From a virus, in IMG/VR virus record IMGVR_UViG_3300020442_003036, positions 1 to 42,612 of that record: DNA of 42,612 nucleotides; one strand, given 5' to 3'. Every line of letters starts with the position of its first letter. Position 1 is the first letter of the stretch. Below are positions 1 to 36,128 of the stretch, in pieces. The position numbers and the translations under genes are program-made. Below the pieces are notes generated by a model that made no database searches, was not told where the DNA came from, and was given only the letters and a program-made list of their open reading frames with translations.

Positions 1-147
1 CCACCTCCTTCATCACCTCCGCCACCACTTCCGCCACCTCCACCACCCCCTCCACCTCCACCACCATTATCTCCTCCACCACCACCACCTCTTCCACCTC
101 CGCCACCACCTCCGCCACCACCTCCTCCACCACCTCCGCTACCTCCT
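1..147 (+). repeat. Polyproline-coding low-complexity tract
   Basis: This is an almost uninterrupted run of CCA/CCT/CCG/CCC codons with rare Ser and Leu codons, in frame with the adhesin. Mixed synonymous codons show it is selected as protein and is not a simple DNA slippage repeat. It continues past the left edge. It probably forms a stiff polyproline-II rod ahead of the vWA-like domain. A second tract of the same kind lies in the 2450-aa gene at 17023-17187. Confidence 0.85.
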
Positions 148-3100
148 GAGATTACGATTGATGGTTCTATAGATGTTGTTATTTGTATAGATACTAGTTT
201 TAAGCACCCGTTGAATAACTGGACACTATTTAAAGATGAGTTATATAAATTTATTTATGATACTAATAATAGAGGAGATTTTGCTAACAATAAAGTAAGA
301 ATTGGTATTACTACTAACTTTGATGAATATCCTCTGACATCAAGCTATAATACTCTTTTATCAAATTTAAATAGTATTACTTTTGATTCTCCGCCTCCTC
401 CTTTTCCTCCTCCTCCGCCTGGCGTTGAACCTCCTAAGTTTTATACGTTTCGCTTAAAGCACCAACTACTAAAAGCAAAAACACAATTAAATAATTCAAA
501 GATTTGTGATAAATTAATCATTGTCGCTATTCCTGCTTTTAGCACAGACATTGTAAGAGAATCAGAAGCTATTGCTGAAGCAAAAGCGATTAATAAGTTA
601 ACAGTAAATGATGGAACATCTTACTATCCATATAGTATTAAGATGATTAGTGCATATAGTCCTTTAAGTAAATATCCAAAAATACCATCAGATAATACTA
701 AATTACAAATCGTATACGACGACTCTGCAGCAAAAAATAGCGGAGCTACGTGGTTAGAATATGAAAATTTATGGAACTATAATACTACTGTTGGCATGTA
801 TACAGTAGTTCCCACTTTAAGATATTTTATGGCAAATATGGCGTCAATATCGCCAACTCCTACTCCAACACCTACTCCTACAGCAACGCCTATAGTTTTA
901 CCAGAAGGAATACCTAATAATATAGCAGGGTGTAACGGTGAAGCATTTTTTGTAGAGTGTCTTCCTACAGAAATAGCTGTTGGTAATTCTACAGATGATA
1001 ATGCTAATGTTTGGACGCCTACCAATATCACACTTAAAAAAGGCGACACAATCAGAGTATCCTCTAGAGGATGTATATGTTCAGAAAGTGTTGCTTTACA
1101 GAGTATTGATAATCAAGATTTACAATTAGACGACGAAACACTAGTTCTTACAGAAGATGCTGATAGCTTATGTTCAGATTTCACAGGAGTACCAGGATCT
1201 AATCTTAATAGATTGTATGGCACAATTTTGCCAGATGGTGTTCAGCCTAGTATTACTAATCAATTTGATATTGATCTTGGACCAAATATTGCAGGTGGGA
1301 CAGCAGTAACTAAGATTGCTAAACCTGGAACCGGTAAATTGTGGTTACTACCTTATGCCCCAAGTTATAATAACACCAATACTTACAAGTTCTGTCTTTC
1401 CATTTATGTAGATGCTTTTTTTGCTACTCCAACAGCCACGCCAACGATTACGCCCACACCTACTGTCACTCCTAGTATTACTCCAACAATATCATTAACT
1501 CCATCTATTACTCCTTCTAATAGTCCAACCGCAACTGTCACGCCTACTGTAACACCTACTCTTACCATTAGTAATACTCCAACTAATACTCCTACACCTA
1601 CCATACCTGGTTGTAATTTGGCTCTATCTTCTTTGACATTAAACGATAGTAGCATGTCTATTATGGATGAGGGTCAAGGACACATATATGTTGCTGATGG
1701 TTATGATGGAATTAAAGTAGTTAAAAATCATGGTAGTAGTTTGGAGCTGGTAAAATATATTAATAAGGGCCAGAATATAGATAAAATAGCAGCTGATTTT
1801 AGTTTAAGAAATATATATGCTGCTTATGACAAACAGGTTGATGTTATATCTATATCTACTCCTGATACGGCTTCTGTATCTACTAGTATAGATCTTTCAT
1901 CTGTGCTTACTGGAGGCACGGATAAGATTACAGATATAAAAGTTTTAGACTCTAATAATACTGCTTATGTTATTTCTAAATTAGGAGTATTTGTTGCCAT
2001 TAATCTTGCTACAAATGCCATTATCAATAGTGCTACTTTAGTTAGTGGTGTTGATTATGACTTCAACTCATTAGATATAGCGACTTATCCTAATTATGAT
2101 TATGTATATGTTGCATTAAGAAATTCTACTAGTGGTATGATTTATAGAGTAGAAGTAGACACACTTACAGTAAGCAATATTACTTCTGTAGCAATATTAG
2201 GCTCTAGTGCTACGTATGGTTATGTGTTTCCTAAGTCTATAGCGGTTGTTGGCAATTATGCTTATTTAGCTATTACTACAGGTAATGTAATTATATTTAA
2301 ATTAGATCCTTTTACACTCATGTCTAGCCTTGAACTTAAGACAGCCGGAACTGCTGTTAACATTACTAAGTCTTGGGAAGATCAATATCTATTTATTGCA
2401 GATTCCCAGCAAGGGTATACTATAGCTAATATAACAGATGTTGACAATATTCATCTTAATTCTATAGATAATTACAACACAGTTTATAATGTTGATATGG
2501 CTTCTGATGCTACTAAATTAGTGTTATCACAAGGATACAGAGGTATTACTGTAGTGAAAAGTTGTGTTGGTAATTTTAGACCAACCCCAACTCCAACTCC
2601 AACAGCAACTATAACAGCTACTCCTACATCTACTCCTACAACAACCAGTACTGTTACTCCTACAGTCACGCCTACGATTACGGCAACCTCTACAGTCACT
2701 CCAACTGTCACGCCTACAATATCTTTGACACCATCTAATACTCCTACAAATACTGTTACTCCTACTATACCAACAACATTAACGCCAACCCCAACTAATA
2801 CTCCTACTTCATCACCAACCCCAACTTTAACAGTAACTTCAAGTGTTACGCCTACTATTACTGCTACTAACACACCAACACCGACATTAACACCCACATA
2901 TACAACAACACCTACTGTTACTCAATCAGCAACGCCCACAGCAACAGCAACGGTAACAGCGACTCCTACTAACACCCCAACACCAACTGTAACTTTTGTT
3001 AATAGAACAAATAGAGCGAATTATAACAATTCAGCTTCTTGGGGTTCTCTTCTTACTAGGGTTACTACAGTAGGCACCAATGGCAGCCCTAGTTACTATG

Positions 3101-3852
3101 GTGCTTATGATTTTTCTGGACTGCTTTATGAATGGTTGGACGATGTGCCTGCTTCATCATACAAGTGGGTGAGAGGTGGAGCATATTCATCTGCTTTATT
3201 CTATATTAGTAAAGCATTTAGAAGTATACAAAGTCCTGTAGGGCATTCACAGTATACCGGATTCAGAGTATCTGCTAAAACCACATCATCAGATTTAATA
3301 GATTTTGTTACCGTATCTAATGTAGACAATGCCAATGATAGCACAGGATTTGGTGCTGTTTCTTATGAATATAAAATTGGTAAATATAAAATTACTAATG
3401 GTCAGTATGTAGATTTTCTTAATTCTGTCGCTACTACAGACCTTTACGGTCTTTATCGTACATATATGGGTACAGAACCCGATGGTGGGATAACTAGACA
3501 CGGATCATCAGGTAGTTATGTCTATACGTACAGAAATTACATGCAAGACAAACCAGTAAATCATGTCAATTGGTTTGACTGTGCCAGATATTGTAATTGG
3601 TTACATAATGGTCAACCAATAGGTTCGCAAATTAGTTCCACTACTGAAGATGGAGCATATACATTAAATGGTGCTACTGCTGGCATAATAGATAAAAATA
3701 CAGATGCTAAATACTATATACCAACAGAAGACGAATTTGTAAAAGCCGCATACTACGATCCAAATACTGCAACATATTATGATTATGGTACGCAATCAAA
3801 CACCGGACCTACTGCTGTTTCAGCTAGTTCTGATGGTGATGGACTATTTTAA
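1..3852 (+). CDS. Multidomain virion adhesin/tail-fiber-like protein, 5'-truncated by the window edge
   Basis: The reading frame is open from base 1, so the TTG at 211 is not a real start; 1283 residues are visible. Order (residues counted from base 1): polyproline 1-49; a vWA-like Rossmann region about 56-285 with VVICIDTS (incomplete DxSxS metal site) and a polyproline insertion near 130-142; short TP linker 285-298; a Cys-containing beta domain 299-475 that weakly resembles PA-IL/LecA-type lectins ([10 protein letters not shown], then GKLWLLP near its end); TP linker 475-536; a beta-propeller-like region 537-860 with repeated IYVAD/AYVIS/YVYVA blade strands; a long TP linker 861-998; and an FGE-sulfatase (C-type lectin) domain 999-1283 with its halves swapped (RGGAY and GFRV come before [18 protein letters not shown] and [13 protein letters not shown]). 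No cysteines of the FGE oxidase site are present, so it is likely a binding domain. A receptor-binding or decoration role is inferred. A weak SD precedes the next gene 17 bp downstream. Confidence 0.75.
1423..1608 (+). repeat. Threonine-proline linker repeat (adhesin, between lectin-like and propeller domains)
   Basis: Imperfect 6- and 12-base units encode TPT, TPTVTP and TPTISLTPS blocks of about 62 residues. The block around 1480-1510 (TPTISLTPS) recurs in diverged form near 2712-2740 in the next linker, so the linkers look like copies of one another. Confidence 0.8.
2578..2997 (+). repeat. Long threonine-proline linker repeat (adhesin, before the lectin-fold domain)
   Basis: About 138 residues are made almost entirely of Thr/Pro with Val, Ala, Ser and Asn, in TPTVTPT-type units. 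This is the longest of the linkers and joins the propeller to the C-terminal FGE-sulfatase-type domain. Many Thr residues make it a possible O-glycosylation stalk. The antisense reading gives GVGVGV runs that are not genes. Confidence 0.8.
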
Positions 3853-3869
3853 GAATTAGGATGTAAAAT

Positions 3870-5855
3870 ATGGTATATAATAAACTTGAATTACCTGATT
3901 CAACAGCTGAGATACAATCTAGTGCTCCGCGAGACCCTAATGTTATAATAGAATTTAATGGTAGTGGTATACATAAAATTACAGGACCAACTCCACAATT
4001 TACATTTAGCACGACCTATAACAGATCTGCTGTAGGACAATTAGACAGTGTTGATAGAAAAATTACATTAGAAGGTCAAATAGTAAGGTCTGCAAATCCC
4101 GCATTTTCATTTCCTGTAGTACCAAATGAATCGGGTGTAAAAGGATTAACAGGAGCACACGAAGCATTAAAAGCTTTATTTTCAGAATGTAGTGCTGGTA
4201 CTCTTGCTATGTATTGTGACGGAACACAATTTTTTGAAAAACATAATGTTAGAGTAGATAGTATAGAATTTAATAGTAGTGATAATAATTTTATACAAGT
4301 TGCTGAATATACTGTTAATCTTAGTTTTTTTGAAGCCGGTACGCATGGATATGCTGTTAGAAATACGACAGACGAATGGAACATAGAACCTTTAGAAGAT
4401 TACGTTCATCAAAATTTTATTATAAAAGAAGCAGGTGCTGGTGGAGAATTGCACAATCCTCCAAGAAATCCTTTTGGGGACGGGAGATTCAATCCAGTAG
4501 AGAATACAAATATTAATTTCTCATCTATGCCTAGATATAAAATCTCTAGAAAATTATCTGCTGTTGGTTTACCCAATACCGGAGTTGGTAGTGGGTGTAC
4601 AGATGTGGGTGTCAATACATCATTTTTAGAAGCTAAAGGTTGGGTGGAATCAAAATTAGTTACTGCTTTTAATGGATCAACAAACAATAGCTCTATTTTA
4701 AATAGTGGACTACCGTTTTTTATGGATTCTCCTGACTATACTACTATGGGTCCTACATTCTTATACAATCATGTAAGAACTACTAATTTTAGTATTTCTG
4801 AAGGTTTATATGCTGTGAACGAAACATGGTTAGCGATGCCAACAGGAGTGAGGTTTTTAGAAAACTATGATATTGATGTTTCTACAGATGCAAGTTTTAT
4901 TAAAACCGTTAGTGTTAAAGGAGAAGTTCAAGGTCTTTATTTGAAAGAAATGACTGCTTTAACTGGACAAAATTTAACTCCTGACAGTACTGGTCTTATT
5001 GCAGTTGACAATGAGAACACCGAACGTGCTGTTCTAAATGATCAATCAGCTACTTCTTTTAGTGTTAATGGGGTTTTAGTCGGACAAACTAGCAACAAAG
5101 CTGAATTATCAAAAAATAAATTTGAAAATGCACTCAGTGGCTATATGGATCATGTTAAACCATTCTTATATCAAAGAGCTAATATAGGATTAAATAATAG
5201 ATATTATAATGAATATTGGTTAGATGAAACTACTAGCGCAGTACCTGATACGATCCGCAAGGATCCTATTCCCGGTTCGGCTCCACAAATCAGAAATCCA
5301 ATTTATGTTAAAGAACAACCATTAAATGTTATTCCAATTAGTACAAGCGAAGCTCATAATGTACAAAAGGGTAGTATTAGTTATAATTTTCAATACGATA
5401 ATAAAAGAAATATTTGTACTGGTGTATTAAGTTCTAACGTAACTGTAGAAACTAGTTTTCCTACAGATGTGTTTGCGGAAGCTTTTGTTTTAGGAAGAGC
5501 TCTTGGTCCAGTTTTGCAGGATTTGGGAACGGTAACTTCTGCCAAAAAAACTATAGGCATAGAAGTTAAAGTTATACCCCCACAAAACATTGATGGGTAT
5601 AGTATGAAAAACCCCTCGTGTCCTTTGTTTGTAGATGGTAATATATATCAAACCATTATTGGTATTGCTAATTCTCTTAAACCTTATGGAGATCAAACCA
5701 CACTATTGGGATATAAAGAGAATAACGTAAATCAAAAAGGACAAGTTTACAAATCAACAGATTCAGAAAATTGGAATCCTATAGATGGTTCTTACAGCAT
5801 ACAACTATCTTATACGTACCAGCCTTGTAATATTAGTCAATCATTTAGGACTTAG
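3870..5855 (+). CDS. Putative tail/baseplate structural protein (661 aa)
   Basis: The ATG is preceded by an AGGA-type SD (TTAGGATGTAAAATATG) and the gene follows the adhesin by 17 bp. I do not recognise a named family. By eye the protein is rich in beta strands and seems to hold three related beta modules: residues about 35-165 (FTFSTTYNR, then KITLEGQIV, ending YTVNLSF), about 305-430 (TTNFSISEGLYAVNETW, then IKTVSVKGEV) and about 500-661 (ISYNFQYDNKRN, ending YSIQLSYTYQPC). Each pairs a beta hairpin with a short helix, a pattern seen in phage tail-tube, distal-tail and baseplate domains. There is no signal peptide or membrane segment. Its place between an adhesin and two giant virion proteins supports a tail-tip or baseplate role, which is inference. 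Confidence 0.55.
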   Translation: MVYNKLELPDSTAEIQSSAPRDPNVIIEFNGSGIHKITGPTPQFTFSTTYNRSAVGQLDSVDRKITLEGQIVRSANPAFSFPVVPNESGVKGLTGAHEALKALFSECSAGTLAMYCDGTQFFEKHNVRVDSIEFNSSDNNFIQVAEYTVNLSFFEAGTHGYAVRNTTDEWNIEPLEDYVHQNFIIKEAGAGGELHNPPRNPFGDGRFNPVENTNINFSSMPRYKISRKLSAVGLPNTGVGSGCTDVGVNTSFLEAKGWVESKLVTAFNGSTNNSSILNSGLPFFMDSPDYTTMGPTFLYNHVRTTNFSISEGLYAVNETWLAMPTGVRFLENYDIDVSTDASFIKTVSVKGEVQGLYLKEMTALTGQNLTPDSTGLIAVDNENTERAVLNDQSATSFSVNGVLVGQTSNKAELSKNKFENALSGYMDHVKPFLYQRANIGLNNRYYNEYWLDETTSAVPDTIRKDPIPGSAPQIRNPIYVKEQPLNVIPISTSEAHNVQKGSISYNFQYDNKRNICTGVLSSNVTVETSFPTDVFAEAFVLGRALGPVLQDLGTVTSAKKTIGIEVKVIPPQNIDGYSMKNPSCPLFVDGNIYQTIIGIANSLKPYGDQTTLLGYKENNVNQKGQVYKSTDSENWNPIDGSYSIQLSYTYQPCNISQSFRT

Positions 5856-19866: not shown

Positions 19867-20913
19867 ATGCCCAAAATTTCAGAATTAGACATTATTACAC
19901 GGTTAACCGAAGATGATTTTTTTCTGGTTGTAGATAAAGAAACCTCTACGACTAGACAAATTAAACTTTCTGATATTTTAGATATTGTTCAGCATGTTTT
20001 TAACTTAGACATTAGAAGAGATCCTCCAGAACCAGTTGTTGAAGATCCATTGGGTGTTGTTCGCACTCCAGGAACACTAATTTCTAGCCCAGACTTATCC
20101 CCTCAAATATCTAATACAGAAACAGCTGTGGCTGGTAAAATTAGCAAATCTGGTAGTTTATCTTTTACCAGACAAACAATTTCAAGATTACAGACAGAAC
20201 TTTTAGCGCTAGGATTCAAGTTAGTATCAACTTCAGCAGCTAATGCTGGAGGCAAAACTAATTATACTACACCACAAAATAATACCCATCATGCATGGAA
20301 TGAAGCTAAAAATACTTGGGAGACTATACCCGCTACTCAAAGTAGCTGGATAGGTTCTATGACTATAATTCCAAGTACAGACATTTCTAACCTGGTTGAT
20401 GTATATACCGTCACATCTGAAGAAAGTATTATTCAGTTAGCATACGATTCATTTACTTTGCCTAATAGGTATGTTGTAAAAGCTGTAAATAGTAATGAAG
20501 ACTATGGTTCTGAAGAAGCAATAGTAACAATATTTGATACATATCACGAGGTTACTGGTGCTAAAACCGTTAATATATGTAAACCTGCGGGTTACAACAA
20601 AGTAACAGTAACGATTAGTTCTGCAAGAGGGAACAGTTTTGAATACACGTTAACAGATACTGGCACATCATGTTCAGTAACTCCTACTCCTGTACCAGTA
20701 ACGCCAACTGTTACTCCAACATCATTTGCTACTCCTACTCCAACTTCTACTCCTAGAGTAACACCTAATGCTCCTACGGCGACACCAACTGTTACGCCAA
20801 CCAGCTCTGTTACTCCAACTGTTACGGTTACTAGTTCTGTAACTCCAACAAATACTCCTACGGTTTCTGTAACACCAACCAAAACACCAACACCAACAGT
20901 CACTCCATCCTAA
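19867..20913 (+). CDS. Tail-fiber/adaptor-like protein with KISEL N-terminus and TP tail (348 aa)
   Basis: The start is supported by AGGATAAGTCATG. Residues 2-40 (PKISELDIITRLTEDDFFLVVD, then RQIKLSDIL) match the short module often found at the N-terminus of phage fiber and adhesin proteins, thought to attach them to the virion. Residues about 95-130 contain TRQTISRLQTELLALGFKL, possibly a trimerising helix, and residues 190-270 look like a small beta domain ending in Cys. The last 75 residues are a threonine-proline repeat that runs straight into the stop codon. In the first gene of the window the same kind of linker continues into an FGE-sulfatase domain; here that domain is encoded by the next gene, 17 bp downstream in another frame. 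Confidence 0.65.
   Translation: MPKISELDIITRLTEDDFFLVVDKETSTTRQIKLSDILDIVQHVFNLDIRRDPPEPVVEDPLGVVRTPGTLISSPDLSPQISNTETAVAGKISKSGSLSFTRQTISRLQTELLALGFKLVSTSAANAGGKTNYTTPQNNTHHAWNEAKNTWETIPATQSSWIGSMTIIPSTDISNLVDVYTVTSEESIIQLAYDSFTLPNRYVVKAVNSNEDYGSEEAIVTIFDTYHEVTGAKTVNICKPAGYNKVTVTISSARGNSFEYTLTDTGTSCSVTPTPVPVTPTVTPTSFATPTPTSTPRVTPNAPTATPTVTPTSSVTPTVTVTSSVTPTNTPTVSVTPTKTPTPTVTPS
20676..20910 (+). repeat. Threonine-proline linker repeat at the C-terminus of the KISEL fiber protein
   Basis: TPTVTPTS, ATPTPTSTP and SVTPTVTVTSS units fill the last 75 codons. Composition and codon choice (ACT/ACA/ACG with CCT/CCA/CCG) match the linkers at 1423-1608 and 2578-2997. The repeat ends at the stop codon with no folded domain behind it. 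Confidence 0.8.
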
Positions 20914-20930
20914 AAATATAGGTTATAACA

Positions 20931-23084
20931 ATGGCGCACACATCACTATTTGATTTTACTAGACCTCATAGATCTGTTAATTTGCTCACCACTTCTGGCG
21001 AATGGGATGGAAAAATTAGAGCTACTACGGTAGGTACTAATGGTATGCCGTCATATTATGAAACATATGATCAAAACGGTGGAGTAGCAGAATTTACAGA
21101 AAAGTCAGTTCTTTTAAGAGACAAAGACTTAACCGGTACTCCATATAACTTTTCTTTAGCTAAACAGGCATGGGGAGGTAATTATCTTTTATCCGTAGAT
21201 GGCTTTACGGCTTCTGGAAATCAAGATGCGTTTAGTACAGTGCCTGTTGCTTCTGGCAAGCCTGGTTTTGGGTTTAGGGTTGGTTCTATTAATTCTTCTA
21301 TAGAATTAAGTGGTACTGTTTCTGGTACAAGTATTACATTTTCTACCGGAACCTATGATCCAATTCATATGGACACAAGAGTTGAAGTTTCAGGTTCTGG
21401 CATGTTAAATTCTACAACTATCACTAATGTAGTTTTAAAGTCTAACAATGAAGTAAAAGTCACATTAGACAGGGATAGTGGCGTTAATGGAGATAGAAAT
21501 ATTAAATTGACTTTATCAAATCCTTTAAATCAAGCAAATATGGTTACTGTAGGCAATTCTGGAAATGCCGTAGACACTAATGGTAGAGGTAGGGTTAATT
21601 ATAATTATAATATAGGTAAATTTTCTGTTACTTATGGTGAATGGGCTAATTTTTTAAATAGCGCAGCTTCTGGTTCTGACAAGGATATATTATGGCACTC
21701 TGGAATGACACCCGTTGTAAAATACTACTCCCCCGCCACAGCAAACTATGGTGATTATGGATTTAGAGTCAAAAAGGCTTATGAGAATAAACCTTTAGAA
21801 AATGTAAGCTGGGAAGCAGCGGCTATGTATTGTAATTTCTTGCATAATACAAGTAAGAACGATAGTAGACCAGCGCCCCTTAAATTAAGAGATGGTGCGT
21901 ATGATCTTAAAACCAACGTTAAAAGTTTCAATAGAAGTGCTGGAGCAAGATATTTCTTACCTACTGTTGACGAATGGTATAAAGCAGCATATTACCATCC
22001 TGGTGGCGCAGATGCTTATGGCAGAGGATATATACCAAGTGGAGCAGGTTATTCAGATTTTGCAATAATGAATGACAATAAACCCTCAGTACAAGAAGAT
22101 ATTAATAAATATGGTGATGGTCCACAAATATTAGACTGTGGACTTTTTGATAGAAATAGTTTTGAAAACGCTATAACATGGTCTGGAAAAAATGGTGCAG
22201 AAAAGATTCTGTGGGCATTGCATGGAGCGGCAGACAGATGGGATAATGTTATTACTCTTATTAGAGATTATAGACATAAAGACGCTAGCACAGCAGGTCA
22301 ATATAAGAATTCTGCTAGATATATGCAAATTAAAGAAAAATATGAACATTATTATGAACAGCTTTTGAGTCATGGAGGTGGGAGGAAATATAAGGTTGAG
22401 GATATGGCGGTGTGGTGTGGTCTTAAATTAGAATATATTTCATTTTACAATAGCTCAAATGCTAATATAGCAGCTGCTGGTCCAAGGCTTATAACCATAA
22501 CAGACGATGCAAAAGCCGGAGAACCATGTAGACAAAGATTTTTACCAAGCACATTTACTTTACAGATTAATACTAGATTTTTAAATACTTATAGCGAAAA
22601 TGACTGGTTAGAAATTCTGACCAATCAACTTGGTCGTGCTTTGGGCTTTGCTACTTTATGGCCAAGAAATTTTGGCCCTAATCTAAGAAATCCATGGAAC
22701 AGTTGCACTAGTGCGGGTGGAACCGGATCTGGTGGAGCATATAACAGCACTGATTTAGATGGAGATTTCTTCATCAACACAAGTAAAGCATACAATGCTG
22801 CTGTTAATGATGGTGTAGAAAGAAGACTTATTCCTATCACTGGTTCTACTAATTCAACTACACCTTACTCCTTTCTTAACACCTATAGAGATGATACTGC
22901 TTCTACGGACGGATTAGAATATCCAGGCTTAAGCAACGATGTTATGGCAACTCCACATGCAACTCATGTTTCTAATAGTATAATTTCAACAGTAACTATT
23001 GGTAATATGATTGACTTAGGCTACTATGGTCACGTAAATCATCTTACTGGTGAACCAACTTTAACCTTAGCTAACAAGTCGTAA
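20931..23084 (+). CDS. Virion protein: permuted FGE-sulfatase domain plus inactive metzincin-like domain (717 aa)
   Basis: Residues about 15-112 equal the C-terminal half of an FGE-sulfatase fold (TTVGTNGMPSYYETYD, WGGNYLL, FGFRVGS). An extra beta domain follows at about 117-195. Residues about 200-385 equal the N-terminal half (MVTVGNSGNAVDTNG, YNIGKFSVTYGEWANFLN, RYFLPTVDEWYKAAYY). The halves are thus swapped, as in the first gene of the window. Residues about 395-717 resemble leishmanolysin-type metzincins: FTLQINTRFL, the helix at 564-577 reading T-N-Q-L-G-R-ALGFATLW, and a Met-turn-like NDVMATPH followed by TIGNMIDLGY. The zinc motif HExxH is replaced by NQLGR, so it should not be an active peptidase. 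A binding or structural role in the fiber is likely. Weak SD (ATAGG); a TAG at 20919-20921 blocks read-in from upstream in this frame. Confidence 0.65.
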   Translation: MAHTSLFDFTRPHRSVNLLTTSGEWDGKIRATTVGTNGMPSYYETYDQNGGVAEFTEKSVLLRDKDLTGTPYNFSLAKQAWGGNYLLSVDGFTASGNQDAFSTVPVASGKPGFGFRVGSINSSIELSGTVSGTSITFSTGTYDPIHMDTRVEVSGSGMLNSTTITNVVLKSNNEVKVTLDRDSGVNGDRNIKLTLSNPLNQANMVTVGNSGNAVDTNGRGRVNYNYNIGKFSVTYGEWANFLNSAASGSDKDILWHSGMTPVVKYYSPATANYGDYGFRVKKAYENKPLENVSWEAAAMYCNFLHNTSKNDSRPAPLKLRDGAYDLKTNVKSFNRSAGARYFLPTVDEWYKAAYYHPGGADAYGRGYIPSGAGYSDFAIMNDNKPSVQEDINKYGDGPQILDCGLFDRNSFENAITWSGKNGAEKILWALHGAADRWDNVITLIRDYRHKDASTAGQYKNSARYMQIKEKYEHYYEQLLSHGGGRKYKVEDMAVWCGLKLEYISFYNSSNANIAAAGPRLITITDDAKAGEPCRQRFLPSTFTLQINTRFLNTYSENDWLEILTNQLGRALGFATLWPRNFGPNLRNPWNSCTSAGGTGSGGAYNSTDLDGDFFINTSKAYNAAVNDGVERRLIPITGSTNSTTPYSFLNTYRDDTASTDGLEYPGLSNDVMATPHATHVSNSIISTVTIGNMIDLGYYGHVNHLTGEPTLTLANKS

Positions 23085-31744: not shown

Positions 31745-31772
31745 ATTATAAAACCTAATCGGATATAGTCAA
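31745..31772 (-). promoter_or_regulatory. Near-consensus sigma70-type promoter for ssb
   Basis: On the - strand: -35 TTGACT (31772-31767), a 16-bp spacer, then -10 TATAAT (31750-31745, perfect consensus). Transcription would start near 31738, about 36 bp before the ssb ATG. The -35 overlaps the last codons of the polymerase gene (stop at 31769-31771). This is the only such pair I found close to the start of a leftward gene. Confidence 0.8.
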
Positions 31773-33394
31773 GCCTTAGGAATAAAACATTTTTCTACAA
31801 TCAGACTATCCTTATTTTTTGATTTTTTACCGGTAAAAATTAACACATTTCCTTCAAACACATGAGTTCTGTATGATGCCCATGTTTCTGGAAATAGAAT
31901 AATAGAGTCTAGTAGACCATATTGATCTTCACCAGTGATAAATGCCATTTCAGCGCCAGGATTTTTACCATTTTTTGTTTTAGTTACATTAACACCAACA
32001 ACTTCTGCTGCTAAAATAATATCGTCTGTTTTATATGTTTTCTTAAAGTCTTTACAGTTAGTATTAGTCATTTCTATCTTGTAAGAGTCTAATTTAGAAC
32101 AGGTTATTGCGGTCCCCAGCAAAGAGTTTTCTGAATCAGACAGCCATTCGATTTTGTCTGTTAAAGAATATGGTGGATTATCTATAGAAGCTATAAGATT
32201 ATTTATTATTTCTTTTCTTTTAACATTAACTCTTTTTGTTAATAATTCTGTTAATATTTGTTTAAGATTATTGTCTGTATTAGATATTGCTTCTTGACAT
32301 TTTTCCATTTCTTTTTTTGTTAAAGTATTAAAGATTTCATATTCAAAAAGCATTTTTGTTCTAGACATTTTAAAATAATCTAATGCACCGCAAGAGATGA
32401 GGGCTTTGGTTGCAGTAGTATTAATTTTGCATAAAACCTTATTAAGCATATCGTACCAACTAAGTGAACCAATATCTATTTTATCTTTTTCTAAAATTTC
32501 TAATATCTTTTTATATACGGACTTTCCAAGACCTTTAATGTCTGTTAGTCCAAAAAATATTTTTCTATCTTTTATAGCAAATAGTTCATTGAGATTTCTA
32601 ATGTCTGGAGTCTGTATGTTAATATCCATTTCATTTGCGTTTCTCACAAGTTCCTTGATTTCTTGCTGAGGATCTATTTTATCTTTTGCAAACTTAAGAT
32701 ATGATGCAAAAAACACCCTTGGGAAATGTGCCTTTGTAAAAGCTGACAAATAAGCGTTCATCGCATAACTTACTGCATGAGATTTATTAAAGCTATATCT
32801 TTGACTTTTTTCGATCCAGCCAAATATTTCTTCTGCTGTTTCTTCGTCTACTTCGTTAATTTTTTTAGCACCCTCAAGAAAAGACTTCTTAACTTCTGCC
32901 ATTAAGTCCGCTTTCTTTTTACCGATAGCTTTTCTAAGGACATCTGCTTCTTGTAAATTAAACCCAGATACAACTCTAGATATTTCCATAGCTTGCTCTT
33001 GATAAATCATTTCTCCATATGTTTTTTCCAAAACATTTTTAAGAATAGGATGATAATAGTCTACAGATTCTTGACCATTCTTTTTATCTATGTAATGATT
33101 AGATACTGTTTTACCATCTCTAACAGCTTCTAAACATCCAGGTCTTAGGATACTAATAAGCGCAGATAGCTGTTCTATATTTCTGGGTTTCAATTTTTTT
33201 GCCATGCTTTGACCAAGCCTAGACTCTAACTGAAAGCATCCTTTTGTATTACCAGAAGAAATTAAATCCCAAGTCTTAGAACATTCTAAATTGATTTTTT
33301 CTAACTTGGGTTCAAATTGTATTCTGGGAAATTCTGAGTTACTTCCTGTTATCTCAAATTTACAACCGCAATCAAAAGTATAATACTTAGACAT
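31769..33394 (-). CDS. dnaE: DNA polymerase III alpha, C-terminal part (fingers to OB domain; 541 aa)
   Basis: Recognisable DnaE segments in order: WDLISSGNTKGCFQLESR (about 42-59), RPGCLEA (84-90), YQEQAMEI (131-138), SFNKSHAVSYA (201-211), a helix-hairpin-helix stretch (LTDIKGLGKS, near 282-291), and an OB fold at about 450-541 (AEVVGVNVTKTKNGK, then EGNVLIFTGKK). The PHP and palm catalytic Asp residues are absent because they are encoded by the gene at 34257-36128. No tau-binding domain is apparent. A new first 40 residues (FDCGCKFEI) replace the part normally joined to the palm. The ATG overlaps the exonuclease stop by 8 nt. It must assemble with the N-terminal part to make an active polymerase. 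Confidence 0.88.
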   Translation of the reverse strand: MSKYYTFDCGCKFEITGSNSEFPRIQFEPKLEKINLECSKTWDLISSGNTKGCFQLESRLGQSMAKKLKPRNIEQLSALISILRPGCLEAVRDGKTVSNHYIDKKNGQESVDYYHPILKNVLEKTYGEMIYQEQAMEISRVVSGFNLQEADVLRKAIGKKKADLMAEVKKSFLEGAKKINEVDEETAEEIFGWIEKSQRYSFNKSHAVSYAMNAYLSAFTKAHFPRVFFASYLKFAKDKIDPQQEIKELVRNANEMDINIQTPDIRNLNELFAIKDRKIFFGLTDIKGLGKSVYKKILEILEKDKIDIGSLSWYDMLNKVLCKINTTATKALISCGALDYFKMSRTKMLFEYEIFNTLTKKEMEKCQEAISNTDNNLKQILTELLTKRVNVKRKEIINNLIASIDNPPYSLTDKIEWLSDSENSLLGTAITCSKLDSYKIEMTNTNCKDFKKTYKTDDIILAAEVVGVNVTKTKNGKNPGAEMAFITGEDQYGLLDSIILFPETWASYRTHVFEGNVLIFTGKKSKNKDSLIVEKCFIPKA

Positions 33395-34079
33395 TATTAA
33401 AGGCGTTTCTAAACTTAATTTTTGGAGACAAATTTCTAAAAAGTTTCATAAATCTAATCAATATTTCTGCAGTATCCTGAACATCTTTAAGAGCATCATG
33501 GGCATTTTCCTTTGATAGTCCCATATAATCTCTAAGATTATCAAGAGTATAGTTTTTTAATTCATTATTGTTTTCGAACCAATAAAAAATCACATTCATA
33601 ATATCTAACACATCTCTAGGATAGAATATGTCAGTTTTGTTTTCTTTATTTACGTTTTTATACTTTTGGCTTAATCTATTAATAATAGGTAAATCAAATC
33701 TATTAATATTGTAACCAGCAGCAATCGGAGCACTAAAGCAATTCTTTTTAACAGATCGTGTGTGATACATTTGTAAATAACTTACAAACATCTTCCATGC
33801 CTGTTCTTGCTTTTGGTATTTTTTCCAGGACTTAAGAACTTCTGCTTTGGTTGTTCCTTTAACCTTAGCGTGAAAATCCAAAACATCGGAATCATCATAA
33901 GTATATTTGGGGTTGTCCTGTAGTGCCTCAGGTTTTAAACAAATGTTAAATTCTGAATCTGGCACTACCTCCAATTTAATTGGATCAACAATAACGGCTG
34001 CAATCTGTACAGGACTACAAACCTCTGGATTGCAACCGTCTGTTTCTAAATCAAAGACACAAATCTTCTGACTATTAAT
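33387..34079 (-). CDS. DnaQ-like DEDDh 3'-5' exonuclease (proofreading; probable ATT start)
   Basis: The conserved core begins KICVFDLETDG (Exo I, DxE), followed by AGYNINRFDLPIINRL (Exo II, N-x3-D) and NAHDALKDVQDTAEIL (Exo III, H-x4-D). It is thus a complete RNase T/DnaQ-type nuclease, likely the proofreading partner of the split polymerase around it. There is no ATG/GTG/TTG between an AAGGTGGAGGTG SD (34095-34084) and the core; ATT at 34079 lies 6 bases behind GGAGG and overlaps the preceding stop (ATTAA). A GTG at 34154 would give 25 more residues overlapping the 59-aa gene with no SD. The start is inferred, the identity is firm. Confidence 0.85.
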   Translation of the reverse strand: MNSQKICVFDLETDGCNPEVCSPVQIAAVIVDPIKLEVVPDSEFNICLKPEALQDNPKYTYDDSDVLDFHAKVKGTTKAEVLKSWKKYQKQEQAWKMFVSYLQMYHTRSVKKNCFSAPIAAGYNINRFDLPIINRLSQKYKNVNKENKTDIFYPRDVLDIMNVIFYWFENNNELKNYTLDNLRDYMGLSKENAHDALKDVQDTAEILIRFMKLFRNLSPKIKFRNAFNNV

Positions 34080-34254
34080 CTGACACCTCCACCTTCTGAT
34101 CAGGACGAATAAAATGTTGCACCCTATTATTATTAGCAACATAACAATTAGCACTTTTACAACAACTGACTTTAACAGTATTCATTTTTACATATTGTTG
34201 GTTATTGAATTTGAAAGCTTGACCAACTGCAATTTCTTGAAATGTTTTTTGCAT
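34075..34254 (-). CDS. Small conserved phage protein (59 aa) inside the polymerase region
   Basis: The gene is ATG to TAA, two bases after the stop of the N-terminal polymerase gene, with GGAG as SD. The protein begins MQKTFQEIAVGQAFKFNNQQ and has KVSCCKSANC in the middle, ending HFIRPDQKVEVSD. This IxVGxxFxFNGxxYxK...VSCCKS...FxPxxxVEV pattern is one I associate with very small proteins in many tailed phages; a compact beta barrel is likely but the function is unknown. It is omitted by length filters yet clearly real because of the matching pattern, spacing and overlap with the exonuclease start (ATTAA). Confidence 0.75.
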   Translation of the reverse strand: MQKTFQEIAVGQAFKFNNQQYVKMNTVKVSCCKSANCYVANNNRVQHFIRPDQKVEVSD

Positions 34255-34256
34255 TA

Positions 34257-36128
34257 TTATTCTCCATGCGATAGTGTATCTGATATTGACATAACTTTAT
34301 CTAACATAGCCACACCAAGAATATCAAATTTTATAATACCCAAAGATTCCAGATCTTGCATTTCCATGCCAGCAATTGTGGTTTTGTTTTTTGTATCGTA
34401 AATCATTGGACACATTGTATCTAAGTTGTGACTACTAATAACTACACCGGCAGCATGTTTTGATTGATTAGATTTTGTGCCCTCTAATCTAATAGCCTGC
34501 TCAAACCTTTTTGCAAGTGGGCCTTTTAATTTATTTCCATCTTTGCTAACAGAGCACCACTCTTTAAGCTTATCGTTATTGTTTTCTAATGCCCATCTAA
34601 TTATAGAAGCTTCTCCATAGTCATCTTTCATTTCTTGTAATTCATCAGCAATTTTAGCTTCATCGGGTATACACTTTGTAATCTGATTCATTTCATCAAA
34701 ACTTATATTTCCATAAACTCTTAATACTTCTTTTAAAGCACCTCTTCCTTTCATAGTATTAAATGTAATCATTTGAGAAACTTTGTTTTCGCCATATCTT
34801 TCTCTAATATAAGATATGATATCTTCTCTTTTATTAATTGGAACATCTACATCAATATCTGGCATAGATACTCTACCTTCTGTATTCCTACCAGAATTGT
34901 AAAATCTTTCAAAAATCAAGTCATATTTCATTGGATCTATAGAAGTTATGCCAATTAAGTAAGAAACTAAACAACCAGCAGCTGAACCTCTACCTGGACC
35001 GGGTAACCAGCTTTGAGACCTCACACGATCCACTATATCGGCAACAATTAAAAAATAGCTAGAAAGGTCAGCCCCTTGTAAAACAGAAAGCTCTTGCTTG
35101 ATTCTTTCTGTATAACGAGCGTGTTGGTCTTTAGGTACAACATTAGCTATTTTGTCTCTCCAACCATTACGACATAATTGCCTTAAATACTCGTCTGGAT
35201 TTTGTCCATTAGGACATTTAAAAGGAGGAAGAAGTGGTTTATGTAATATTTCATACTCTTCACACATACTATCTATTAATTGTGTATTTTCTATTTCTTC
35301 TTCAGTATGTAACTCTGCCATTTCTTCGGGAGAAAGGATATAATATTTATCTGATTTAAAAAAACAACTAAAAGGAACGTCTTGTCCATCTAGCATTTTT
35401 TTATTTATATCTGTTAAGGTTGTTTTAATATTATTGCATAATAGTATTCTTTGGTCTGTTGCATCCTCTTGTTCTGAATAATGAGCATCAGGAGTGCATA
35501 TAACTTTAGTATTTGTAATAGATGCAATTTTTCTAATTGTTTCTGTCAATTCTAACTGTTTCGGCATATATTCCTGATCCATCAATTGTGTTTCAAGAAA
35601 AAAGTTATCCTTGCCAAATATGTCTTTCATTTGATCTACAAAACTTAAACAAAGTTTTTGATAATTGTCAGGGTTGTTCTCTATAAGATCGGGTATATAA
35701 GAACCCATATGTCCACAAAAAGCAATTAAGTTTTTACCTTTAACGACCTCTTGTAATTTATCTACAGATAATCTAGGTTTGCGATAATAATTATTTGGAT
35801 TATTAGATTCAGAAACTATTCTAATTAAATTTTTCCATCCTTCTAAGTTTTTAGCAAGCACCAAGAAATGTGTAAGTTTACTATTTTCTGGAGTCTTAAT
35901 ATTAGAATCATCAAAAGATAAATATAGCTCACAACCTAGAATAGGCTTTATTCCATTAGATTTAAGAGTCTGATGTATTTGTACAGCACCGGATATGGAG
36001 CCATGATCAGTAATAGCACAACTTTTAACACCAATCTTTTTACATCGTCTTGCTATTTGTTTAGGCTTAGACAAACCATCCAACAAAGAGTAGTGGCTGT
36101 GAACATGTAAAGGTATATAGTTTTTCAT
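34257..36128 (-). CDS. dnaE: DNA polymerase III alpha, N-terminal part (PHP and catalytic palm; 623 aa)
   Basis: PHP domain at residues 1-230: LHVHSHYSLLDG, TDHGSISG (41-47), GCELYLS, GHMGSY and PDAHYS all keep metal-binding residues, so the PHP domain may be active, unlike in E. coli. Polymerase core: LPGPGRGSAAG (375-385), SMPDIDVDVP with Asp426 and Asp428, and KFDILGV with Asp602, the third catalytic Asp. The protein ends 21 residues later, before the fingers. The rest of the enzyme is encoded by 31769-33394, after a 59-aa gene and an exonuclease gene. No intein sequence is visible at either end. It starts as ATGA overlap with the RecB-like nuclease gene. Confidence 0.9.
   Translation of the reverse strand: MKNYIPLHVHSHYSLLDGLSKPKQIARRCKKIGVKSCAITDHGSISGAVQIHQTLKSNGIKPILGCELYLSFDDSNIKTPENSKLTHFLVLAKNLEGWKNLIRIVSESNNPNNYYRKPRLSVDKLQEVVKGKNLIAFCGHMGSYIPDLIENNPDNYQKLCLSFVDQMKDIFGKDNFFLETQLMDQEYMPKQLELTETIRKIASITNTKVICTPDAHYSEQEDATDQRILLCNNIKTTLTDINKKMLDGQDVPFSCFFKSDKYYILSPEEMAELHTEEEIENTQLIDSMCEEYEILHKPLLPPFKCPNGQNPDEYLRQLCRNGWRDKIANVVPKDQHARYTERIKQELSVLQGADLSSYFLIVADIVDRVRSQSWLPGPGRGSAAGCLVSYLIGITSIDPMKYDLIFERFYNSGRNTEGRVSMPDIDVDVPINKREDIISYIRERYGENKVSQMITFNTMKGRGALKEVLRVYGNISFDEMNQITKCIPDEAKIADELQEMKDDYGEASIIRWALENNNDKLKEWCSVSKDGNKLKGPLAKRFEQAIRLEGTKSNQSKHAAGVVISSHNLDTMCPMIYDTKNKTTIAGMEMQDLESLGIIKFDILGVAMLDKVMSISDTLSHGE

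Follow-up and report, generated by a model that had tools for sequence, protein, structure and literature searches.

The N- and C-terminal ends of the chain pair as antiparallel strands in the CLec fold of FGE type (PMC6328139), so a bridge of about 10 residues between them should be physically easy. The DGR variable proteins TvpA (2y3c), Mtd and TaqVP appear to share the FGE-type CLec subtype with the phage domain described here, and their variable segment likewise lies just before the GFR strand. In DGR variable proteins, the segment before GFR forms the binding site and the variable region occupies the very C-terminus (PMC6328139), whereas the variable segment of the phage domain falls within its first third and no reverse transcriptase was found in 41 virus records. 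The motifs of both halves are also common to the phage domain and the PF03781 FGE-sulfatase (SUMF1-like) proteins, such as human SUMF2 (1y4j) and CarF (5aoh), but the phage domain has reversed halves, lacks the catalytic cysteines and occurs in a fibre-like context. Its closest sequence relatives, at about 40-55% identity, come from Planctomycetes and Verrucomicrobia (L006-L008, L118-L197) and are FGE-like proteins of PEP-CTERM type in the usual order. All of these run from N-half to C-half, some of them in tandem, whereas the phage units are swapped. For domains of this kind, “lectin” is a fold label.

Reversed half-domains in two proteins of one phage

The window, by which we mean the whole stretch of DNA analysed, is a 42.6-kb virus record of an uncultured phage (IMG/VR IMGVR_UViG_3300020442_003036, positions 1-42,612). 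Its 717-aa protein B (20931-23084, + strand) combines a permuted FGE/CLec-type domain carrying an insert with a metallopeptidase-like C-terminal domain, as judged from the ORF, Pfam, motifs, half-domain profiles and structure prediction. The C-half (TTVGTNG...GFRVGS; 20970-21287), delimited by a profile match and motifs, lies at the N-terminus, with TTVGTNG at residue 32 (nt 21024) and GFRVGS at residue 114 (nt 21270). The N-half (VTVGN...LPTVDEWYKAAYY...GDG; 21543-22139) comes after the insert and contains VTVGN at residue 205 (nt 21543), IGKF at residue 228 (nt 21612) and LPTVDEW at residue 343 (nt 21957). PF03781 matches the N-half over residues 222-355 with 35.2 bits (cut-off 23.3), and half-domain profiles, the seeds of which included proteins A and B themselves, place the C-half at about residues 14-119 (E 1e-38) ahead of the N-half at about residues 205-403 (E 3e-77).

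Protein A (ORF 1-3852, + strand; 1283 aa, open at the 5' end) is closed by a permuted domain at 3001-3849. Its C-half (3001-3282) and its N-half (3307-3849), which forms the end of the protein, were assigned by PF03781 and half-domain profiles, and the short fused linker between them, which leads from the old C-terminus to the old N-terminus (3283-3306), by motifs and half-domain profiles. PF03781 positions 153-253 align at nt 3025-3270 and positions 36-139 at nt 3367-3801, with a score of 59.9 bits against a gathering cut-off of 23.3. In both proteins the C-half thus comes first, the reverse of the N-half to C-half order of PF03781, and the full set of conserved motifs is present, rotated, within one chain and one domain, as in a circular permutant. 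The original prediction had described this order in the 717-aa protein and in a second one; for protein B, motifs, PF03781 and half-domain profiles all agree with it at the same positions, and for protein A the order of the PF03781 segments bears it out.

Two near virus contigs encode relatives of protein A (87% identity) and protein B (71%) with the same swapped order, and in the near relatives L004/L005 and L009/L010 both genes are present and ordered as in the window. Because these relatives and about 70 contigs share the order, misassembly or chance can be ruled out, as had been argued from the two genes of the window.

AlphaFold2, supplied with 64 related sequences, modelled domain A in its swapped order as one compact domain (pLDDT 94.9, pTM 0.94), not as the two unrelated folds that would have counted against the original prediction. 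Taken together, sequence and model make the permutation of the domain in proteins A and B well supported. When model A was compared with the PDB by Foldseek, the leading matches were PorK, TvpA, CarF and FGE, all proteins of the FGE/CLec fold but each matched over roughly 86-117 columns or about one third of the chain; such short matches are expected of a sequential aligner given a permuted chain. Searched against the PDB, a profile built from permuted domains retrieved 26 FGE-family sequences (SUMF1/2, FGE, TvpA, PvdO, PorK, EgtB), with the halves in swapped order in both alignments displayed. Model B found no match in a structure search of the PDB, nor did model A find a significant one among predicted viral structures, and the permuted arrangement itself was found in neither collection.

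The model of protein B residues 1-415 reached a pTM of 0.78; its confidence is good in both halves and poor in the insert. This insert (21288-21542), which lies within the fused C-to-N linker, had been described as a beta domain of about 80 residues separating the halves. The segment exists and measures about 85 residues, but its beta nature holds only in part: strands are predicted at residues 118-138 and 188-196, and residues 139-184 have pLDDT below 50. Among the collected loci, its only relatives are in the two near phage contigs.

The C-terminal domain of protein B (22167-23081; about 300 residues) was assigned by comparison with a relative and by a likeness to leishmanolysin-type metallopeptidases that stays below threshold. 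At 22623-22649 (+ strand) its zinc motif is degenerate: the HELGHGLGF of the relative L009 reads NQLGRALGF in the window, and the peptidase-like domain of the window's protein has therefore probably lost its activity. A search of solved structures with the relative's C-terminal domain gave no match.

Distribution of the permuted domain among phages

Scanning IMG/VR with a four-sequence alignment of permuted domains yielded 78 loci on about 70 contigs, most of which matched the full query length in swapped order. A first census counted 77 distinct permuted units, forming 64 clusters at 70% identity, and the full set comprises 114 distinct complete permuted units. The linker between the joined ends measures 7-21 residues in 102 of these and 47-287 in the other 12, two of which are protein B and its near relative. 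The junction accordingly tolerates insertions, as had been supposed from protein B alone.

Queries blind to half order gave the same picture. With the C-half as query, 28 viral units were permuted, one was in the usual order and two were ambiguous (28/29 classifiable permuted); with the N-half, 66 of the 86 classifiable viral units were permuted and 20 were usual. These ratios hold for the relatives of this family, which seeded the scans. No permuted unit occurred in the best 80 loci from the bacterial and archaeal genome collection, which contained 84 usual-order units and a further 6 that are tandem arrays. Since the swap recurs on about 70 other phage contigs and is absent from the 80 best bacterial and archaeal contigs, the swapped FGE-type domain appears to be an established phage domain rather than an accident. 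The suggested search for the same order in other phages thus returned many carriers, in line with the proposed lineage of permuted domains. The domain also appears to be undescribed: none of the papers searched describes permuted CLec/FGE domains, and a tblastn search of 50,697 phage records with family queries, positive control included, gave no match. The domain family and its fold are known, and the permuted arrangement would be new.

FGE-type domains in the usual order also occur in stalked phage proteins, on contigs L246, L255 and L257. One protein of L257 (ORF 1-4707, + strand) carries a permuted domain with a usual-order domain from a different subfamily immediately after it. Two contigs classed as viral, L006 (1425-6170, + strand) and L007 (4507-7376, + strand), bear genes in tandem that encode secreted FGE-like proteins of PEP-CTERM type in the usual order; these look planctomycete-like, and the contigs may be bacterial DNA that was misclassified.

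Origin of the permutation and its three openings

Bacterial tandem proteins of the form N-C-N-C (L118, L125, L128, L130) have C-to-N linkers of 12-13 residues, and these usual-order proteins likely correspond to the duplication intermediate. In the route that we propose, duplication of a usual-order domain would yield a tandem protein with a C-to-N linker, and loss of its first N-half and last C-half would leave the phage unit of C-half, linker and N-half. Sequence and prediction show that the linker connects the GFRV strand, the old C-terminus, with the VTVGN strand, the old N-terminus, and that the new ends fall in the loop separating '..GDG' from 'N.ANYN'. After this single origin, two more openings elsewhere in the domain would have followed in other phages. 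In protein B the joined linker contains an insertion of about 85 residues.

When both halves were used to build a tree, a branch with SH-aLRT 99 separated 82 usual-order rows from a set comprising all permuted rows, the usual-order MAG sequences L122, L181 and L194 and three array rows. The three MAG sequences adjoin or fall among the permuted rows, so a loss or a second origin is possible. Constraining the 83 permuted rows to one clade, in a test that left out the C-N-C-N array rows, gave a likelihood 74 units above that of the free search (p-AU 0.94). As all permuted units can form one clade, one origin is likely, being the simplest reading rather than a proven one. The permuted domains of proteins A and B share only 36-39% identity, and the original prediction took the two genes to look independent. 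Both are indeed permuted, but with a single clade not rejected they would be paralogues of one lineage and not products of two independent permutation events.

Most units, including proteins A and B, are opened between '..GDG' and 'N.ANYN'. Units of L016-L018, L091 and L092 instead start just before 'YW[LI]P..[DN]EWYK' and end before the same motif, so that an intact natural N-to-C junction is followed by the C-half and then by the joined linker. A third opening, just after KAAYY, is found in L267/L269 and in L027, L028, L031, L033 and L036. Units of all three openings keep the joined C-to-N linker while their new ends lie at three sites spread over about 55 residues, as would follow from repeated opening of a closed ring. 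Few circular permutants found in nature show several alternative openings together with recognisable intermediates (single, tandem, permuted and reopened), and the combined phage and bacterial set allows the duplication route to be tested on real sequences.

Fibre context and alternative readings

Immediately upstream of protein B lies a fibre-like protein of 348 aa whose tail is rich in Thr/Pro (19867-20913, + strand), assigned from its sequence and conserved in a related contig. Between the end of its Thr/Pro stalk and the protein B start codon are 17 bases, a split that is kept in a relative, whereas in protein A a stalk of this kind runs straight into the permuted domain. Stalks rich in Thr/Pro or Thr occur in 79 of the 101 proteins with permuted units, and 64 of the 114 units are terminal in their protein, standing first or last. 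Ahead of protein A in a related phage are genes with matches to tail-fibre families, to RCC1 repeats and to a subtilase fusion. This context suggests that the permuted domain is most likely a receptor-binding domain on Thr/Pro-rich virion fibres.

Variability peaks between the EW motif and GFR: mean entropy over 64 sequences is 3.1 bits in that segment against 0.5-2.3 elsewhere. This variable segment before GFR would make the receptor contact, and the domains would not act as enzymes. The permutation would move the segment away from the chain end, so that the domain could stand at the beginning, at the end or in the middle of a fibre protein. The arrangement suggests that a scaffold for massively variable phage and bacterial adhesins works with its variable patch shifted from the chain end and accepts modules inserted at the joined ends. 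As a whole, we consider it probable that a ring-joined FGE/CLec domain, arisen from a single duplication, constitutes a widespread phage family that binds receptors on fibres.

The similarity of the profiles to FGE and EgtB could instead point to a permuted but active enzyme of either type. The catalytic cysteine pair of FGE sits shortly before GFR, which corresponds to alignment positions 14-92 here, and no cysteine is conserved across that range in the 64 sequences, making FGE chemistry unlikely; Thr/Pro-rich stalks moreover carry most copies. We reject the enzyme reading, which we regard as extremely improbable, because the cysteines at the FGE site are not conserved. A DGR target whose variable segment is rewritten by reverse transcriptase would explain why fold subtype and variable segment are as in the DGR variable proteins. 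RVT_1, however, had no match in 41 virus records including the window, many of them fragments in which absence is no proof, and the window and L005 differ little in the variable segment; we consider a DGR target very unlikely.

The remaining alternatives concern the architecture itself. Bacterial N-C-N-C arrays with the same linker length could have left relics, cut at both ends, in the form of non-functional half domains. Decaying halves would not keep all their motifs, yet the phage units, in 64 clusters at 70% identity, retain every conserved motif of the two halves, and multi-unit proteins such as L087 have a short C-to-N gap and a long N-to-C gap. The relic reading is thus highly improbable, and a truncated tandem array as the present state can be ruled out, the units being complete and separated by long stalks. 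The halves might also pair between chains, the C-half of one protein completing the N-half of another and so linking fibre subunits in the manner of strand exchange. That C-halves often start and N-halves often end proteins (the 64/114 at a protein end) would suit such head-to-tail linking, but the model of domain A as one chain is compact and of very high confidence, and 102 of the 114 linkers are just long enough for the adjacent ends of one domain, so that we judge this quite unlikely. We give slightly more room to a broader version, itself unlikely, in which the domain evolved as a closed ring whose ends were fused once and which opened at three or more places, with some halves completing each other across chains and joining fibre subunits.

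Between 5866 and 19444 (+ strand) the window also encodes two very large proteins, one of 2074 aa and one of 2450 aa that contains poly-proline stretches; neither has a Pfam match above cut-off, and both are conserved in the related contig. At 31769-36128 (- strand), the domains of DNA polymerase III alpha are divided between two ORFs, PHP and NTPase in one (34257-36128) and finger and HHH in the other (31769-33394). An ORF for an exonuclease subunit (33387-34154) lies between them, and the related contig has the same arrangement.
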